From: a virus
Direction: 5' to 3' (one strand)
DNA length: 43,194 bases
Virus record (IMG/VR): IMGVR_UViG_3300028829_004643
Location: 1 to 43,194 of that record
Positions 3,294-24,955 of the stretch are shown here, one piece after another; position 1 is the stretch's first letter; the number at the start of each line of letters is the position of its first letter. Position numbers and translations under genes: made by a program. Below the pieces are notes generated by a model, which had not been told where the DNA came from, did not search any database, and was given only the letters and a program-made list of their open reading frames with translations.

Positions 3294-3322
3294 ATTATAA
3301 ATGCTGAAGCAAAAATTGTCAA
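3294..3322 (-). promoter_or_regulatory. Sigma70 promoter of the metallopeptidase operon
   Basis: Minus strand TTGACA (3322-3317), 17 bp, TATAAT (3299-3294), with AAAATTTC before the -35 box. It lies just past the stop of the upstream hydrolase gene. Confidence 0.92.
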
Positions 3323-3329
3323 GAAATTT

Positions 3330-3773
3330 TTAGTCCTGGGTATAAAAAATATGATCGTCAATTACTGTAGTAACCCGAAAAGACCATGACCAGTGTGGCC
3401 TTACATTTTTCGCATGATACCACAAAGCTCCTTCTGTAATGTCGAGAGGGCGTTGTTCTAGCAGATATTCAGAAAGTTTTACAGCCTTATCGTATGCAGC
3501 CTTGTCTGACACAAGCTCGCGAACTCCGTCGCAAAACCACGAGAACTGACACTTCCATCGAAGAGGAGGACTCTGTGTAGCCTGGTATACAACATCACAG
3601 ATAGTATTCGGAAACTTGCTGGACGCCACACGATTTAATGTAACATGACCCACAGCTAATTGACCCGCAACGCTTTCTCCACGACTTTCAAAGTAAATAT
3701 TCAACGCAAGACATTCGTTCGCCAATGAAAAAGGGCTCAAGAAGAGCCCTAAGATCAGTACCGCAATCTTCAT
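3330..3773 (-). CDS. SleB-type cell wall hydrolase with signal peptide, 147 aa
   Basis: The protein begins with a Lys, a hydrophobic core and an Ala-Asn cleavage region (residues 1-18), then carries the SleB/Hydrolase_2 signature: NIYFESRGES with the probable catalytic Glu at 29, VGHVTLNRV, FPNTICDVV and CQFSWFCDG. Members cleave peptidoglycan (lytic transglycosylase type), so with its export signal it is a likely endolysin or late lysis enzyme. The ATG overlaps the stop of the holin-like gene. A complete terminator structure lies inside the signal-peptide codons. A second lysozyme of a different family is at 14445. Confidence 0.85.
   Translation of the reverse strand: MKIAVLILGLFLSPFSLANECLALNIYFESRGESVAGQLAVGHVTLNRVASSKFPNTICDVVYQATQSPPLRWKCQFSWFCDGVRELVSDKAAYDKAVKLSEYLLEQRPLDITEGALWYHAKNVRPHWSWSFRVTTVIDDHIFYTQD
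3728..3750 (-). terminator. Terminator-like hairpin inside the SleB signal-peptide codons
   Basis: On the minus strand AGGGCTC, TTCTT loop, GAGCCCT followed by a T run. The 7-bp stem has no mismatch. It lies 23-45 bases into the gene and encodes residues LGLFLSPF. It could stop a share of transcripts between the holin-like gene and the hydrolase domain; ribosomes on the gene may counteract it. Confidence 0.6.
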
Positions 3774-3931
3774 TTTTCTGGAGTAAGTAACGTCCACACT
3801 CCGTAGAGCAGGCCAGCCGATGCAACTATCTTTGCGAGCTCTCCAAAGAGAATCACCGCTGCACAGCATCCACAAATAACAACACCGTCCCACGTACTTC
3901 TTTCTTCCAGTATCTTATTTAAATATTTCAT
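3770..3931 (-). CDS. Small membrane protein, holin-like, 53 aa
   Basis: A charged N-terminus ending in STWDG leads into a hydrophobic stretch with two Cys (about residues 15-30) and a second one (about 33-48), giving one long or two short membrane segments. AGGAGG precedes the ATG by four bases, and the stop overlaps the SleB start. Similar small peptides next to lysis enzymes are common in marine phages. Size, topology and position fit a holin or holin partner, but the function is inferred. Confidence 0.72.
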   Translation of the reverse strand: MKYLNKILEERSTWDGVVICGCCAAVILFGELAKIVASAGLLYGVWTLLTPEK

Positions 3932-3939
3932 TTATCCTC

Positions 3940-4515
3940 CTATAGCAGATGTGTTCCTGCTTTTTTGTGTTTATTCCAGGCTACAAAACCCGCGAGGGCG
4001 AGAGCCCAGTATGCTAAATAGTTCAATAATTTGAACCCGTTTACTTCGATACAGATATCTCGAAAGAGCTTATCTGCTTGGTTTTGGGTCATTTTCTCCG
4101 TATCTTCACCCGACTTGAGTTTCAAACATGAGTACTTATACGCATAGTCGTGTATAAGGCCTCCCATAAGCAACACCCCTACGGGTGATAGCCACATGGC
4201 GAGAAACTTCGGTACTGAAGCACCGTCAAATTGAAATCCACCCGGAATAATATAGTCAACTCCTCGAAGACTATAGTGAAAATCCGTACAAATTTCCCAG
4301 CGACGAACTCCTGTGAGCCACATCCAGATTCCTTTCCAGAATCCTTTACCAGCAGTGGCAATAGGAATCGGTTTCATAGTTGGCATCTGAGTTGCTACAA
4401 AGCCAACACGATCTTCGCCTTGTCCATCAAACTTACTAAAAATAAAACCTACACCTACAAGGCCCGCAAAGACCACCCACTGCCAAAAAGTCATGGCGAG
4501 TTCTAATACACTCAT
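3940..4515 (-). CDS. DUF1353-like membrane-associated protein, 191 aa
   Basis: An N-terminal membrane helix (about residues 9-27) is followed by a domain with the DUF1353 pattern: a strand ending FQFDGASVP (about 92-100), then LIHDYAYKY (about 120-128). A hydrophobic C-terminal segment (about 165-180) may be a second membrane helix. This domain is common in tailed phages near lysis or tail genes; its activity is unknown. AGGAGG precedes the ATG. It is coupled to the EF-hand gene by ATGA and precedes the holin-like gene by 8 bases. Confidence 0.72.
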   Translation of the reverse strand: MSVLELAMTFWQWVVFAGLVGVGFIFSKFDGQGEDRVGFVATQMPTMKPIPIATAGKGFWKGIWMWLTGVRRWEICTDFHYSLRGVDYIIPGGFQFDGASVPKFLAMWLSPVGVLLMGGLIHDYAYKYSCLKLKSGEDTEKMTQNQADKLFRDICIEVNGFKLLNYLAYWALALAGFVAWNKHKKAGTHLL

Positions 4516-4820
4516 TTTTTACCTCCTACGGCATCTGCGGCAAAAAATGCCGAAACTAGTACTGCTATTGAAGCGAAGTATGTCGGAGCAATATCCGCTA
4601 TTAAATTCGCTGCTGAATCAAGTCCGAAAAGACTCGTTAAGAAAATACCTAACGGATAGAGAAGAAGGCCACCCAAAGAAAACCAAGCCATCTTTCGAAT
4701 AGCATCTCTCTGAGCGTCCCTGTCCTCTAGCTCTTTGCGTTTGAACTCCATATACATCTTGTGTTCTTCTGGAGTGACTTTTCCGTCTCCATTAGTGTCT
4801 GCTGGGTGATAATCGCTCAT
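4512..4820 (-). CDS. EF-hand plus two-helix membrane protein, 102 aa
   Basis: Residues 8-19 form a canonical EF-hand loop, DTNGDGKVTPEE, with acidic or Asn ligands at positions 1, 3, 5 and 12. A basic/acidic helix follows, then two membrane segments (about 44-67 and 73-97). GGAGG lies five bases before the ATG. Context next to lysis genes makes a calcium-responsive holin, antiholin or anchor possible, but only calcium binding and membrane location follow from the sequence. Confidence 0.75.
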   Translation of the reverse strand: MSDYHPADTNGDGKVTPEEHKMYMEFKRKELEDRDAQRDAIRKMAWFSLGGLLLYPLGIFLTSLFGLDSAANLIADIAPTYFASIAVLVSAFFAADAVGGKK

Positions 4821-4981
4821 GTATCCTCCGATAAATACGCTATGGCTGACTTATTCAGCCTCACTTCCTTTCCTGAAGGTTGTATGAATGTGATAAATCG
4901 TTCAGGATTGTCAAGCTCTCTCAACTCGATTTCTCCATTCATACTTCCTCCACCTATAAGCCTTATTCTTACTTTTGTCAT
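4817..4981 (-). CDS. Hypothetical beta-rich protein, 54 aa
   Basis: A short soluble protein with a predicted beta-sheet pattern (VRIRLIGGG, then GEIELREL); no family recognised. The ATG at 4981 follows GGAG and overlaps the stop of the 43-aa gene; an upstream ATG at 5014 has no ribosome binding site. Its stop overlaps the EF-hand gene start (ATGA). Confidence 0.68.
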   Translation of the reverse strand: MTKVRIRLIGGGSMNGEIELRELDNPERFITFIQPSGKEVRLNKSAIAYLSEDT

Positions 4982-5109
4982 AATGCAACTCCAGTTGTAA
5001 ATGTTACCCAACATGCAAGAATAAAAAACAGCACAAGAAGTGTATTGCCTATGCAGTAATTTATTCTCTTTAGGGAAACTTTACTCAGTGCTCGTTCCCA
5101 CCAGCTCAT
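4978..5109 (-). CDS. Micro membrane protein, 43 aa
   Basis: A basic N-terminus (SWWERALSKV) precedes one hydrophobic segment (about residues 22-42). AAGGAG lies six bases before the ATG, and the stop makes an ATGA overlap with the next gene. A single-pass inner membrane peptide of unknown role in the micro-gene chain. Confidence 0.7.
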   Translation of the reverse strand: MSWWERALSKVSLKRINYCIGNTLLVLFFILACWVTFTTGVAL

Positions 5110-5275
5110 ATATTTCTCCTTTTAAAACGTCTAATACATCCAGCATTTGCTCCCAGCTTTGGGGAGTATTGCATGCCTCGCTGATTCGAGCTGCGTTTAG
5201 TAGTTTGCGCGTCATCAGCGTATACGCACGTCCACGAGTTGATATGGGTAGATACTCTGCATCTGATATAATCAA
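5081..5275 (-). CDS. Hypothetical protein with TTG start, 64 aa
   Basis: A soluble, helical, slightly acidic protein. The TTG at 5275 is preferred because it overlaps the upstream stop (TTGA) and has GGAG about six bases before it; the frame continues upstream to a GTG at 5320 without a ribosome binding site. It overlaps the following gene by 29 bases. No family recognised. Confidence 0.65.
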   Translation of the reverse strand: MIISDAEYLPISTRGRAYTLMTRKLLNAARISEACNTPQSWEQMLDVLDVLKGEIYELVGTSTE

Positions 5276-5388
5276 ATAAAACTCCAAAGTAATATAAAGG
5301 GAAAAAGAAGCGTAAACCACGCTGCGATTTGAAGCGTGCGTTTACGACGTTTGGGTGAAAGCTCTAACCAAGCAGAAGAGATATACAT
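5272..5388 (-). CDS. Micro membrane protein, 38 aa
   Basis: A short N-terminus with a basic patch (PKRRKRT) followed by one hydrophobic segment (about residues 20-38). TTAGGAG precedes the ATG by about seven bases, and the stop overlaps the next TTG start. Topology by the positive-inside rule places the N-terminus in the cytoplasm. Confidence 0.68.
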   Translation of the reverse strand: MYISSAWLELSPKRRKRTLQIAAWFTLLFPFILLWSFI

Positions 5389-5456
5389 ATGTATACTCCT
5401 AAGTAAGTACCGAGTGCATAAACCATAAATCGAACACTTTTATCGAAGAACTTCAT
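5364..5456 (-). CDS. Micro membrane peptide, 30 aa
   Basis: MKFFDKSVR then a hydrophobic run to the end (ALGTYLGVYICISLLLG). It overlaps both neighbours (17 and 25 bases) and has no clear ribosome binding site, so translation would be coupled to the coiled-coil gene upstream. Confidence 0.5.
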   Translation of the reverse strand: MKFFDKSVRFMVYALGTYLGVYICISLLLG

Positions 5457-5571
5457 TTTCAAGCCTCGACGTCTTTTGTTCTAATTGCTGCAAAGTTTCC
5501 ATAATCTTACTTAGCTTTTCCTCTATTGCCTGTAGGCGAATAAAGTTTAGGTCATTTTCATTTATCATCAT
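5440..5571 (-). CDS. Micro coiled-coil protein, 43 aa
   Basis: Heptad-spaced Leu/Ile/Met residues (IEEKLSKIMETLQQLEQ) over most of its length suggest a single coiled coil. AAGGAG precedes the ATG, which makes an ATGA overlap with the upstream gene. It may pair with the coiled-coil protein encoded just before it. Confidence 0.68.
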   Translation of the reverse strand: MMINENDLNFIRLQAIEEKLSKIMETLQQLEQKTSRLENEVLR

Positions 5572-5771
5572 AGTCTCCTTAATATTTCAATTGTATTCTT
5601 GTACTTTTCAATATCTGCTTGCATTCCGAGCTGTTCTAGCTCTAATCCATCTATTTGGGCACGTAGTTCACCTATCGTCTTGTAAGCAAACTCTAGCAGC
5701 TCTGCAAACTCTAGCAGATCTTTAAGATCTAGCACCTCTTTAAACTCTTCTTCTTTTTTCGAATATCCCAT
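5568..5771 (-). CDS. Coiled-coil protein, 67 aa
   Basis: A highly charged helical protein with a short internal repeat (LLEFAELLEFA, about residues 19-29) and heptads to the C-terminus. The start overlaps the upstream stop (TGATG), indicating coupling. Function unknown. Confidence 0.7.
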   Translation of the reverse strand: MGYSKKEEEFKEVLDLKDLLEFAELLEFAYKTIGELRAQIDGLELEQLGMQADIEKYKNTIEILRRL

Positions 5772-5971
5772 CAGAATGTAAATCTCACCTCTGTTTCTAG
5801 TTTGTGCTTTAAAGTATCATCATTCGACGATATTCCTTCCCATTTACCCTTGATTGTAAGACTGTCAAATTGGAACTTATACCCTGTTTCGGCTCCAAAC
5901 TTACCATCACTTACATATCCACCTTCCCAATAAAAGTTTTTGAATTTTACTCCAGGTCTCAAATGATTCAC
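5771..5971 (-). CDS. Beta-strand-rich small protein, 66 aa
   Basis: It reads as alternating amphipathic beta strands and ends in VRFTF, a terminal Phe pattern seen in outer-membrane barrel strands, but there is no signal peptide. The start is a GTG overlapping the stop of a 6-codon mini-ORF (GTGA) placed just after a promoter, with no ribosome binding site. The frame is also open upstream across the promoter, so a longer relative cannot be excluded. Confidence 0.6.
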   Translation of the reverse strand: MNHLRPGVKFKNFYWEGGYVSDGKFGAETGYKFQFDSLTIKGKWEGISSNDDTLKHKLETEVRFTF

Positions 5972-5995
5972 CGTTTTTTCATACGCATCGGGTAT

Positions 5996-6024
5996 ATTAT
6001 AATTGATTTTTAGAAGTTTGTCAA
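5996..6024 (-). promoter_or_regulatory. Sigma70 promoter of the micro-gene chain
   Basis: Minus strand TTGACA (6024-6019), 17 bp, TATAAT (6001-5996), with AAAAACTTC before it. The predicted start near 5989 precedes the GTG at 5971 by about 18 bases. Confidence 0.9.
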
Positions 6025-6049
6025 GAAGTTTTTAGAGGTATAAAACTCC

Positions 6050-6118
6050 TTATTCGTCATCCCACGGTGGATTTATTACTAATGCACAAAAAATAAGTAT
6101 TACCATGATTTCTATCAC
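6050..6118 (-). CDS. Micro membrane peptide, 22 aa
   Basis: A GTG overlapping the upstream stop (GTGA), with GGAG seven bases before it, opens a 22-codon frame: a hydrophobic segment (MVILIFCALVI) and a short acidic tail NPPWDDE. Too short for homology arguments, but the coupling and ribosome binding site match its neighbours. Confidence 0.5.
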   Translation of the reverse strand: MIEIMVILIFCALVINPPWDDE

Positions 6119-9244: not shown

Positions 9245-9543
9245 TTTACTTTGTCCGCCCAATAAGCTGCGCTCATTTTACCACGAGCTATATTACGCCT
9301 GTGCCTTGCTTTAAAAGAAGCTCTCTTTTTCTTCATACGATCGCTTTCTCCAGCTTTTGGTTTTCCAGCAGTCTTTGCGCCTTGTTGTCCAAAACGAATA
9401 GTCTTTACTTTGTCGCCAACTTTGGCAACAACAATGTGTGATTTCTTCGGATGTTTAGGAGTACGTCGAGGCTTGTTATATCCCGACACACGGGCTCTTG
9501 CCAGACGAGAATCTTTCTTTTTAACCCTTCTTTTTGCTGCCAC
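9238..9543 (-). CDS. Very basic conserved phage protein (DUF6321-like), 101 aa
   Basis: Lys/Arg-rich N-terminus, then VVAKVGDKVKTIRFGQQGA and KPKAGESDRMKKKRASFKAR, and a C-terminal YWADKVKW. I recognise this as a family widespread in marine phages (DUF6321 as I recall; the number should be checked). Its strong positive charge suggests nucleic-acid contact. GTG start with AGGA seven bases upstream, overlapping the previous gene by 23 bases. Confidence 0.75.
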   Translation of the reverse strand: MAAKRRVKKKDSRLARARVSGYNKPRRTPKHPKKSHIVVAKVGDKVKTIRFGQQGAKTAGKPKAGESDRMKKKRASFKARHRRNIARGKMSAAYWADKVKW

Positions 9544-24028: not shown

Positions 24029-24955
24029 ATGAAAAAACTTCTTGATGCCGCTTCAACCGCCTACTACCAAGGGATTCCGTTCATGTCTGACGCAGAATTT
24101 GATATTCTGTGTGCAGAGTGCAACTATAATCCTGTAGGGTACGAAGGAGACTTTGAGTTCGCTCATTTGTTTCCTATGTATTCTTTGAAAAAGGTATTTG
24201 TCGGTGACGAGCATCCTCCCTACGATCATAGTGGACACGAAACTGTCGTTAGTCCTAAACTGGACGGTGCTGCCGTATCCCTTAGTTACTATAACGGAGA
24301 ACTTATCCTTGCCCTAACACGGGGTGATGGAAGGCGAGGCCGCGATATAACTGACAAGATGCGACACCTTGTTCCAGAAGATATGCCATCTGTGGGTGCA
24401 GTACAGATAACTGGGGAAGTAGTAGCTCCGGACACTATTCCTAATTCTAGGAACTATGCGTCTGGTGCGCTGAACTTAAAGTCGCTAGAGGACTTTCTCG
24501 AAAGAGAAGTACGATTCGTGGCATACGATGTTCAGCCAGCTATTAACCAGTACTGGACTGATGACTTGGAAGGACTAGCGAAAGCTGGCTTTGATACGGT
24601 CATTCAGTCAAATTGGACTGGGTATCCTCAAGACGGGGTAGTATTTCGCACGAATGATCGTGTTAAATATGAAGAGGCGGGTTACACGTCCCACCATCCC
24701 CGAGGTGCATTTGCACTAAAAGAACGTCCAGAAGGTGTGGTAACACAGTTGTTGGACGTAACGTGGCAAGTAGGTAAATCAGGAGTAATCTCTCCCGTGG
24801 CCATACTTGAACCTGTAAAAGTTGGGGACGCTACGGTGTCCCGAGCTACCCTCCATAACATTCGTTATATTGAGGAATTACAATTAGAGATTGGTTGCAA
24901 TGTTGAGATAATTCGCTCAGGCGAAATAATTCCTAGGATAGTCAGGAGAGTATAA
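24029..24955 (+). CDS. NAD-dependent DNA ligase, adenylation and OB part, 308 aa
   Basis: K77-L-D-G (KLDG) is the adenylated lysine motif; RGDGRRGRDIT, ITGEVVAP, NSRNYASGAL and DGVVFR follow as nucleotidyltransferase motifs. The last about 70 residues (VTWQVGKSGVISPVAILEP ... EIIRSGEIIPRIV) form the OB fold. It lacks the zinc finger, helix-hairpin-helix and BRCT parts, which are encoded separately at 26278. The N-terminal Ia region (AYYQGIPFMSDAEFD) binds NAD. Together they resemble T5's two-subunit ligase. Confidence 0.9.
   Translation: MKKLLDAASTAYYQGIPFMSDAEFDILCAECNYNPVGYEGDFEFAHLFPMYSLKKVFVGDEHPPYDHSGHETVVSPKLDGAAVSLSYYNGELILALTRGDGRRGRDITDKMRHLVPEDMPSVGAVQITGEVVAPDTIPNSRNYASGALNLKSLEDFLEREVRFVAYDVQPAINQYWTDDLEGLAKAGFDTVIQSNWTGYPQDGVVFRTNDRVKYEEAGYTSHHPRGAFALKERPEGVVTQLLDVTWQVGKSGVISPVAILEPVKVGDATVSRATLHNIRYIEELQLEIGCNVEIIRSGEIIPRIVRRV

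Follow-up and report, generated by a model that had tools for sequence, protein, structure and literature searches.

Organization of the gene chain

The window, that is, the whole stretch of DNA analyzed here, is a 43,194-base linear virus record (IMGVR_UViG_3300028829_004643); it is a fragment, and its source is a marine virus of bacteria. We examined a chain of small genes on its minus strand that runs into a cell wall hydrolase gene. Genes of the chain are named by a letter and their length in amino acids, and L-numbered loci (L001 and so on) are stretches of other records compared with the window. Between 6118 and 3770 the minus strand holds 12 closely packed open reading frames (ORFs), followed by the SleB-type hydrolase at 3773−3330. 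Eleven of the 12 encode 22−102 amino acids (B22, C66, D67, E43, F30, G38, H64, I43, J54, K102, and M53); L191, with 191 amino acids, also lies inside the interval.

All of the following genes are on the minus strand. Upstream lies A156 (6115−6585), a conserved gene whose product has a membrane helix and a coiled coil and whose stop overlaps B22 (6050−6118), a 22-residue single-helix peptide with a GTG start in a GTGA overlap. A perfect sigma-70-type promoter, TTGACA-17-TATAAT (5996−6024), sits in the 78-nucleotide (nt) gap ahead of C66 (5771−5971), which lacks a ribosome binding site. Next come two coiled-coil-like peptides, D67 (5568−5771) and E43 (5440−5571); the single-helix peptides F30 (5364−5456, with its ATG at 5456) and G38 (5272−5388); H64 (5081−5275), a soluble peptide with a TTG start in a TTGA overlap; another single-helix peptide, I43 (4978−5109); and J54 (4817−4981), a small soluble protein whose gene is directly upstream of L191 in some relatives. 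The chain ends with K102 (4512−4820), with a canonical EF-hand loop, a charged helix, and two membrane helices; L191 (3940−4515), with an N-terminal membrane helix and a DUF1353 domain (PF07087) and predicted to be a phospholipase A2-like enzyme; M53 (3770−3931), a conserved small membrane protein and partner of L191; and the SleB-type cell wall hydrolase (PF07486; 3330−3773), with an N-terminal signal sequence. The next perfect sigma-70-type promoter, at 3294−3322, marks the start of the following unit.

Between A156 and SleB there are 13 junctions. Seven overlap by 4 nt (ATGA, GTGA, or TTGA) and one is TGATG, giving 1- or 4-nt overlaps at 8 of 13; three others overlap by 17, 25, or 29 nt, and the last two are an 8-nt gap and the 78-nt gap. 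GGAG or AGGAGG precedes most starts, the exceptions being C66 and SleB.

An earlier reading made from the sequence only had described a chain of at least 11 overlapping ORFs of 22−102 codons, most of them led by a ribosome binding site, and that chain is present on the minus strand and withstood comparison with shuffled sequence. Where at least six ORFs had been credited with one or two membrane segments, hydropathy, the only method applied, gave seven (B22, F30, G38, I43, K102 with two segments, L191, and M53). The two proposed coiled coils have heptad patterns above those of shuffles, the value being reached in 15 of 1000 shuffles for D67 and in 1 of 1000 for E43. The single EF-hand loop was found in K102. 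As the comparisons below demonstrate, the chain is two things joined together: a variable micro-gene array and a conserved core consisting of K102, L191, M53, and SleB.

The chain compared with chance

The longest coupled chain of ORFs led by ribosome binding sites comprised nine ORFs and four tight overlaps. The maxima in 300 dinucleotide shuffles were four ORFs and two tight overlaps, and none of the 300 equaled the real chain. Nine other stretches covering both strands of the window (eight with starts from 9300 to 37300, and the plus strand of the chain region) had chains of at most four ORFs and no tight overlaps. We conclude that the chain is beyond chance. A coding-potential model, whose score was not taken as proof, set the chain as a whole apart from other frames and did not always do so for individual genes: G38 and I43 scored negative, and even the conserved L191 was near zero.

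Perfect sigma-70-type sites occurred seven times in the window, compared with 0.04 expected, and in L154, one of two array-carrying contigs described below, the array likewise has a TTGACT-17-TATAAT site in front of it. Because the motif drives genes on both strands, it is uninformative about the timing of expression. Near-perfect TTGAC(A/T)-TATAAT promoters are widespread in the phage group, with 211 in 1.33 Mb and at least one in 117 of 146 loci (L001−L146).

Exchange of micro-genes in the array

The 146 loci were first fetched by way of K102 or L191, and the sample is biased to those two genes. B22, D67, E43, F30, G38, H64, and I43 were present in none of these loci, and C66 and J54 were each present in 10. 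Two joined queries of IMG/VR gave two further array carriers, contigs L154 and L155. No other IMG/VR contig was found with the array genes, which are thus rare.

Positions 5568−5267 of the window (E43-F30-G38) have 98% nucleotide identity to L154, and positions 5267−4966 (H64-I43) have 95% identity to L154 and 97% to L155. A 79-nt block made up of B22 and 8 nt upstream matches L154 and L155 at 96−97%, and the C-terminal 52 amino acids of D67 are 73% identical in L154. The gene order in L154 is different: two other ORFs lie between G38 and H64 and one between D67 and E43, and B22 comes after I43 and a 45-codon ORF instead of after A156. At the six junctions looked at, the aligned block ended within about 10 nt of a stop/start junction. 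Because the blocks recur in a different order and end near stop/start junctions, we infer that these tiny genes are exchanged as units. Frames are intact over the shared blocks, with no insertions or deletions inside them, and the overlaps are kept where genes are shared with L154 and L155.

In both contigs B22 is the last gene of its unit, and a terminator-like hairpin and T run lie directly 3' of it (4298−4330 in L154, and likewise in L155). A degenerate DNA pattern for B22 recovered three stretches; the one in L157 was discarded as a chance match in an unrelated antisense frame, and the others were L154 and L155.

Among the loci, 51% of 591 identity breakpoints were within 10 nt of a gene edge, compared with 6.9% for random positions, which served as the null; the breakpoints were counted per locus, with some contigs entering twice under two identifiers, and are not independent. 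Selection for intact genes explains the breakpoints at gene edges equally well as targeted exchange. Differences at 22 of 221 synonymous and 36 of 802 nonsynonymous sites, counted over seven window genes and one L154/L155 gene, gave a nonsynonymous-to-synonymous ratio (pN/pS) of about 0.45 (p = 0.005); for the six genes of the 95−98% blocks alone, p was 0.11 for pN below pS. These values suggest that purifying selection acts on the array. C66 matches the C-terminal part of a family of signal-peptide (outer-membrane-like) proteins of about 107−110 amino acids and has a weak Pfam match to a cyanophage outer-membrane family; it is probably the remnant of a longer signal-peptide protein.

K102, L191, and M53 were not found in L154 and L155, and both contigs also carry SleB, a GH24-like lysozyme, and a GTA-type 3TM holin. 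The array is an exchange region of unproven function, and its upstream micro-genes (C66 to I43) have by themselves little that connects them with lysis. Phage single-gene mosaicism, as described in one report (PMC3029335), likewise involves modules that match single genes and are joined near gene boundaries. The units here differ in that they go down to a 22-codon gene (79 nt) and are joined at start/stop overlaps inside one operon.

K102, an EF-hand membrane protein

K102 has the canonical 12-residue EF-hand pattern (acidic or amide ligands at positions 1, 3, and 5, Gly at 6, and Glu at 12), with D8, N10, D12, G13, and E19 in the loop. Six of 120 unique homologues are without the EF-hand segment. 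In the other 114, D8 and E19 are both invariant (114/114), position 10 is N in 107 and D in 7, and D12 is kept in 112. The single-sequence Pfam score for the EF-hand was below the cut-off, whereas the family profile searched against the PDB matched EF-hand proteins from E = 2.9e-7, making the assignment clear. The motif is half an EF-hand, placed ahead of the charged helix and the two membrane helices, and helices are predicted at 17−64 and 78−99. With four basic residues before the first membrane segment and two after the second, the positive-inside rule predicts both ends of the protein inside and the EF-hand in the cytoplasm.

Class II holins, such as S21, have two membrane helices with both termini inside. 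K102 resembles them in length, in its two helices, and in predicted topology, but differs in having an EF-hand loop, an invariant charged helix, and strong conservation. It had no sequence match to any holin family in PHROGs or Pfam, and its structural model (predicted local distance difference test [pLDDT] 80, predicted template modeling score [pTM] 0.50) had no PDB fold match at E = 0.001 or better. Among the literature titles listed for EF-hands together with phage holins, the subjects were endolysins, phage genomics, or neighboring fields. Among the 600 IMG/VR stretches listed for K102, at least 587 encode a relative. A scan of the genomes of 84,980 species gave 16 K102 loci. With a few exceptions, the record titles point to marine contigs that were metagenome-assembled or binned, and K102 therefore seems to be a phage family. 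In CRP-810 a homologue stands next to holin and GH108 genes, and in CRP-207 the neighbor is a lysozyme gene.

L191, a predicted phospholipase

L191 matches DUF1353 over residues 73−171 with 47.7 bits against a cut-off of 22.5 (E = 1.2e-12), and a repeat scan gave 48.5 bits. According to the report on TtaP, this DUF1353 protein is a phospholipase A2 by enzyme and lipid assays, its catalytic His/Asp and neighboring Asp are H70/D71/D85, and its authors expect activity in other DUF1353 proteins (PMC11525133). Residues H122, D123, and D148 of L191, and D97 as well, are the same in all 106 unique homologues, and their equivalents hold in nine diverse phage DUF1353 proteins. L191 has, besides the Pfam domain, the active-site His, the neighboring Asp, and the second Asp of TtaP, a correspondence judged from the motif without alignment of TtaP. 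Unlike TtaP, it carries an extra membrane helix at its N terminus, has more residues ahead of the second Asp, and belongs to a phage. From these residues L191 is a probable membrane-anchored phospholipase A2-like enzyme.

A phage DUF1353 profile searched against the PDB had as its best match the phospholipase A2 7ygk at the HD site, which was not significant (E = 0.78), and the DUF1353 protein of Carin1 had no sensible PDB match. PF09056 (group XIV phospholipase A2) had no match in the window. A second fold search with L191 gave no Z of 5 or more and no phospholipase among the matches shown. For K102 and L191 alike, the silence of searches with predicted models weighs little either way.

At least 527 of the 600 IMG/VR stretches listed for L191 encode an L191/DUF1353 relative. 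Both PHROG 1158 and the HTVC008M RefSeq record (L152, 4992−5597) label the family 'tail assembly chaperone'. Because a DUF1353 protein has shown phospholipase activity, this label is suspect, and the evidence suggests that it is wrong for the L191 family. The literature seen on phage phospholipase A2 and spanins, in part only and mostly outside subscription journals, had nothing on the L191 family. A patatin-based lytic cassette has been proposed for Wolbachia phage WO (PMC9203015); there also a phospholipase A2 adjoins a small membrane protein in a putative lysis cassette, but patatin is another enzyme family, and here a peptidoglycan hydrolase is kept and relatives have spanins.

M53, SleB, and neighboring lysis genes

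M53 comes after L191 in most loci. Spacing in the core is tight, with a K102/L191 gap of at most 4 nt in 39 of 55 pairs and a 4-nt L191/M53 overlap at 20 of 38 junctions. M53 had no match in 50,697 phage records. SleB matches PF07486 with 92 bits (cut-off, 27) and a PHROG endolysin at 1e-20, and the annotation of related genes varies between endolysin and cell wall hydrolase from record to record. An intrinsic-terminator-like hairpin lies inside the first codons of SleB (3750−3732, minus strand); it is probably incidental, because it is absent from all 15 SleB relatives examined.

In L010 and L016 the gene order is K102-L191-M53-f23-f24-TerL, and representatives of f23 and f24 match PHROG Rz-like spanins (1.6e-11 and 1.7e-14). 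Some relatives have K102-L191-M53 directly before i-spanin and o-spanin genes, a likeness to Rz/Rz1-type spanin and endolysin cassettes; the window, in contrast, shows no spanin pair in the unit of the chain. Inspection of the translated chain by eye revealed no lipobox protein; the window is a fragment, and a spanin pair was found in relatives. A spanin role was considered for A156 and is not favored, since L010 has both A156 and members of the spanin families.

Of 124 unique L191 loci, 39 have a recognized lysis gene within 3 kb (18 of the 43 with 2.5 kb on both sides), and 31 have an i-spanin gene within that distance; for recognized lysis genes the counts are 28 of 134 loci for K102 (17 of 66) and 29 of 65 for M53 (13 of 26). 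The DUF1353 genes of Carin1, FNU4, Fnu1, Funu2, FNU_1P, and FNU2 each have a gene annotated as amidase, autolysin, peptidase, or endolysin no more than about 2 kb away, and two of the six adjoin a 'holin family' gene; five of these records are Fusobacterium phages, some of them close relatives, and FNU3 and a second Fnu1 record were left out. The link between the core and lysis genes is real and covers a minority of loci.

Other features of the window

Upstream of the array, five consecutive conserved minus-strand genes (6600−9262), most with signal-like N termini indicating secreted or periplasmic products, keep the same order in many relatives. Four were scanned against Pfam without a family being found, and the PHROG matches are of unknown function. 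The minus strand also encodes, at 9521−9766 and 9963−10250, small histone-like proteins that are strongly basic, with many Lys and Arg residues; small basic proteins are common near TerL in relatives too. By eye, the ORFs at 24029−24955 and 26221−27027 resemble an NAD-dependent DNA ligase divided in two, and two other ORFs lie between them.

Discussion

The chain stands as an observation, more firmly than sequence alone could show. The reading that we prefer, with confidence and doubt about evenly balanced, is that the operon serves lysis or disruption of the envelope, probably encodes a phospholipase anchored in the membrane, and has an array of exchangeable micro-genes in front of it. The operon's own strong host-type promoter would give one polycistronic transcript, and the start/stop overlaps would couple translation. 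SleB would be exported through Sec by its signal sequence and cut peptidoglycan. L191, held at the inner membrane by its one helix with the domain facing the cytoplasm, would cleave phospholipids, and K102, with its predicted class II holin topology and cytoplasmic EF-hand, may form or regulate a membrane lesion together with M53. The 5' array would consist of interchangeable membrane and coiled-coil micro-genes, swapped one or a few at a time at stop/start overlaps, and would supply exchangeable membrane peptides; any part for them in the timing of lysis or in fit to the host is guesswork.

The sequence-only reading had proposed a lysis or membrane-remodeling system, perhaps calcium-responsive, and this is partly supported. 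For K102, L191, M53, and SleB, a lysis/membrane role is supported because of the gene neighbors and the DUF1353-phospholipase link, and the core is likely a lysis/envelope module; for C66 to I43 the proposal gained little such support, and the function of the array is unproven. A lysis enzyme does follow the chain, as had been said, but SleB is not the sole muralytic enzyme of the window. Similarly, the start and stop overlaps, which had been put forward for comparison in related phages, are conserved in the core (39/55 and 20/38) and in L154 and L155 where genes are shared, whereas the array itself is mostly absent from the 146 loci. The calcium response rests solely on the invariant EF-hand loop, and calcium control of lysis is possible and unproven.

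Several observations weigh against the operon reading. K102 is far better conserved than is usual for holins. In the T4-like marine phages HTVC008M and Melnitz-3, the neighbors of K102 are a baseplate hub assembly gene on one side and, on the other, a large gene that in HTVC008M is a tape-measure candidate; L191 is far from K102, near a DNA primase gene. The window has a second muralytic enzyme, a GH24 phage lysozyme (14433−14891, plus strand). The model of L191 (pLDDT 73.5, pTM 0.63), like that of K102, had no PDB fold match at E = 0.001 or better. No lysis gene was recognized within 3 kb in 85 of 124 L191 loci and 106 of 134 K102 loci, many of which are fragments. In Francisella phage KIRK, a published report places a DUF1353 gene among structural genes (PMC7924643). 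As for the GH24 lysozyme gene itself, it stands behind an Hsp20-like gene, on the strand opposite to the array.

An alternative that deserves attention, though we think it rather unlikely, is that the array is an ordinary hotspot of small early or middle genes for host takeover or exclusion, with membrane peptides that change the host envelope or keep other phages out, its adjacency to SleB being incidental. The strong host-type promoter would permit early expression, and the array genes are rare and occur on their two other contigs without K102, L191, or M53 having been found. However, on both contigs the array is again accompanied by SleB, the GH24-like lysozyme, and the GTA-type 3TM holin, and a promoter motif that is present on both strands is silent on timing.

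We judge it distinctly improbable that K102 and L191 act in assembling virions or in DNA entry, as a membrane step of tail assembly or ejection. That proposal draws on the tail genes beside K102 in HTVC008M and Melnitz-3, the same neighbor families in L134 and L139, its strong conservation, and the PHROG and RefSeq label of the L191 family. The label has no basis stated in the records compared here, however, and DUF1353 has a member experimentally shown to be a phospholipase; in other phages, moreover, K102 and L191/DUF1353 genes adjoin lysis genes.

An elaboration of the preferred operon reading, which we regard as speculative and improbable, is calcium-gated, phospholipase-assisted lysis in marine phages. 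A calcium trigger is conceivable because the EF-hand would face the cytoplasm, which is low in calcium until the membrane leaks. A leak would admit seawater calcium, which would act through the K102 EF-hand to activate L191; the inner membrane would be dissolved from within, while SleB and, in relatives, spanins would take care of the wall and the outer membrane. On this view K102 is the missing holin of pelagiphage-like viruses, and the array would be a set of exchangeable modules for timing or host fit. The Melnitz paper describes just one lysin-like gene and suggests that a curli pore acts in the manner of a pinholin (PMC9004378).

That the micro-ORFs are untranslated chance frames is hardly credible: the negative coding scores of G38 and I43 and the remnant-like C66 would fit, but the chain exceeds all shuffles, pN is below pS, the shared blocks have no insertions or deletions within frames, and frames are kept while gene order changes.

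The array illustrates clearly how genome exchange can operate on single, very small genes. If L191 is an active phospholipase beside the lysis enzymes, marine phage lysis would include lipid hydrolysis besides holin, endolysin, and spanin, and, if that is true, the family labeled 'tail assembly chaperone' needs renaming.

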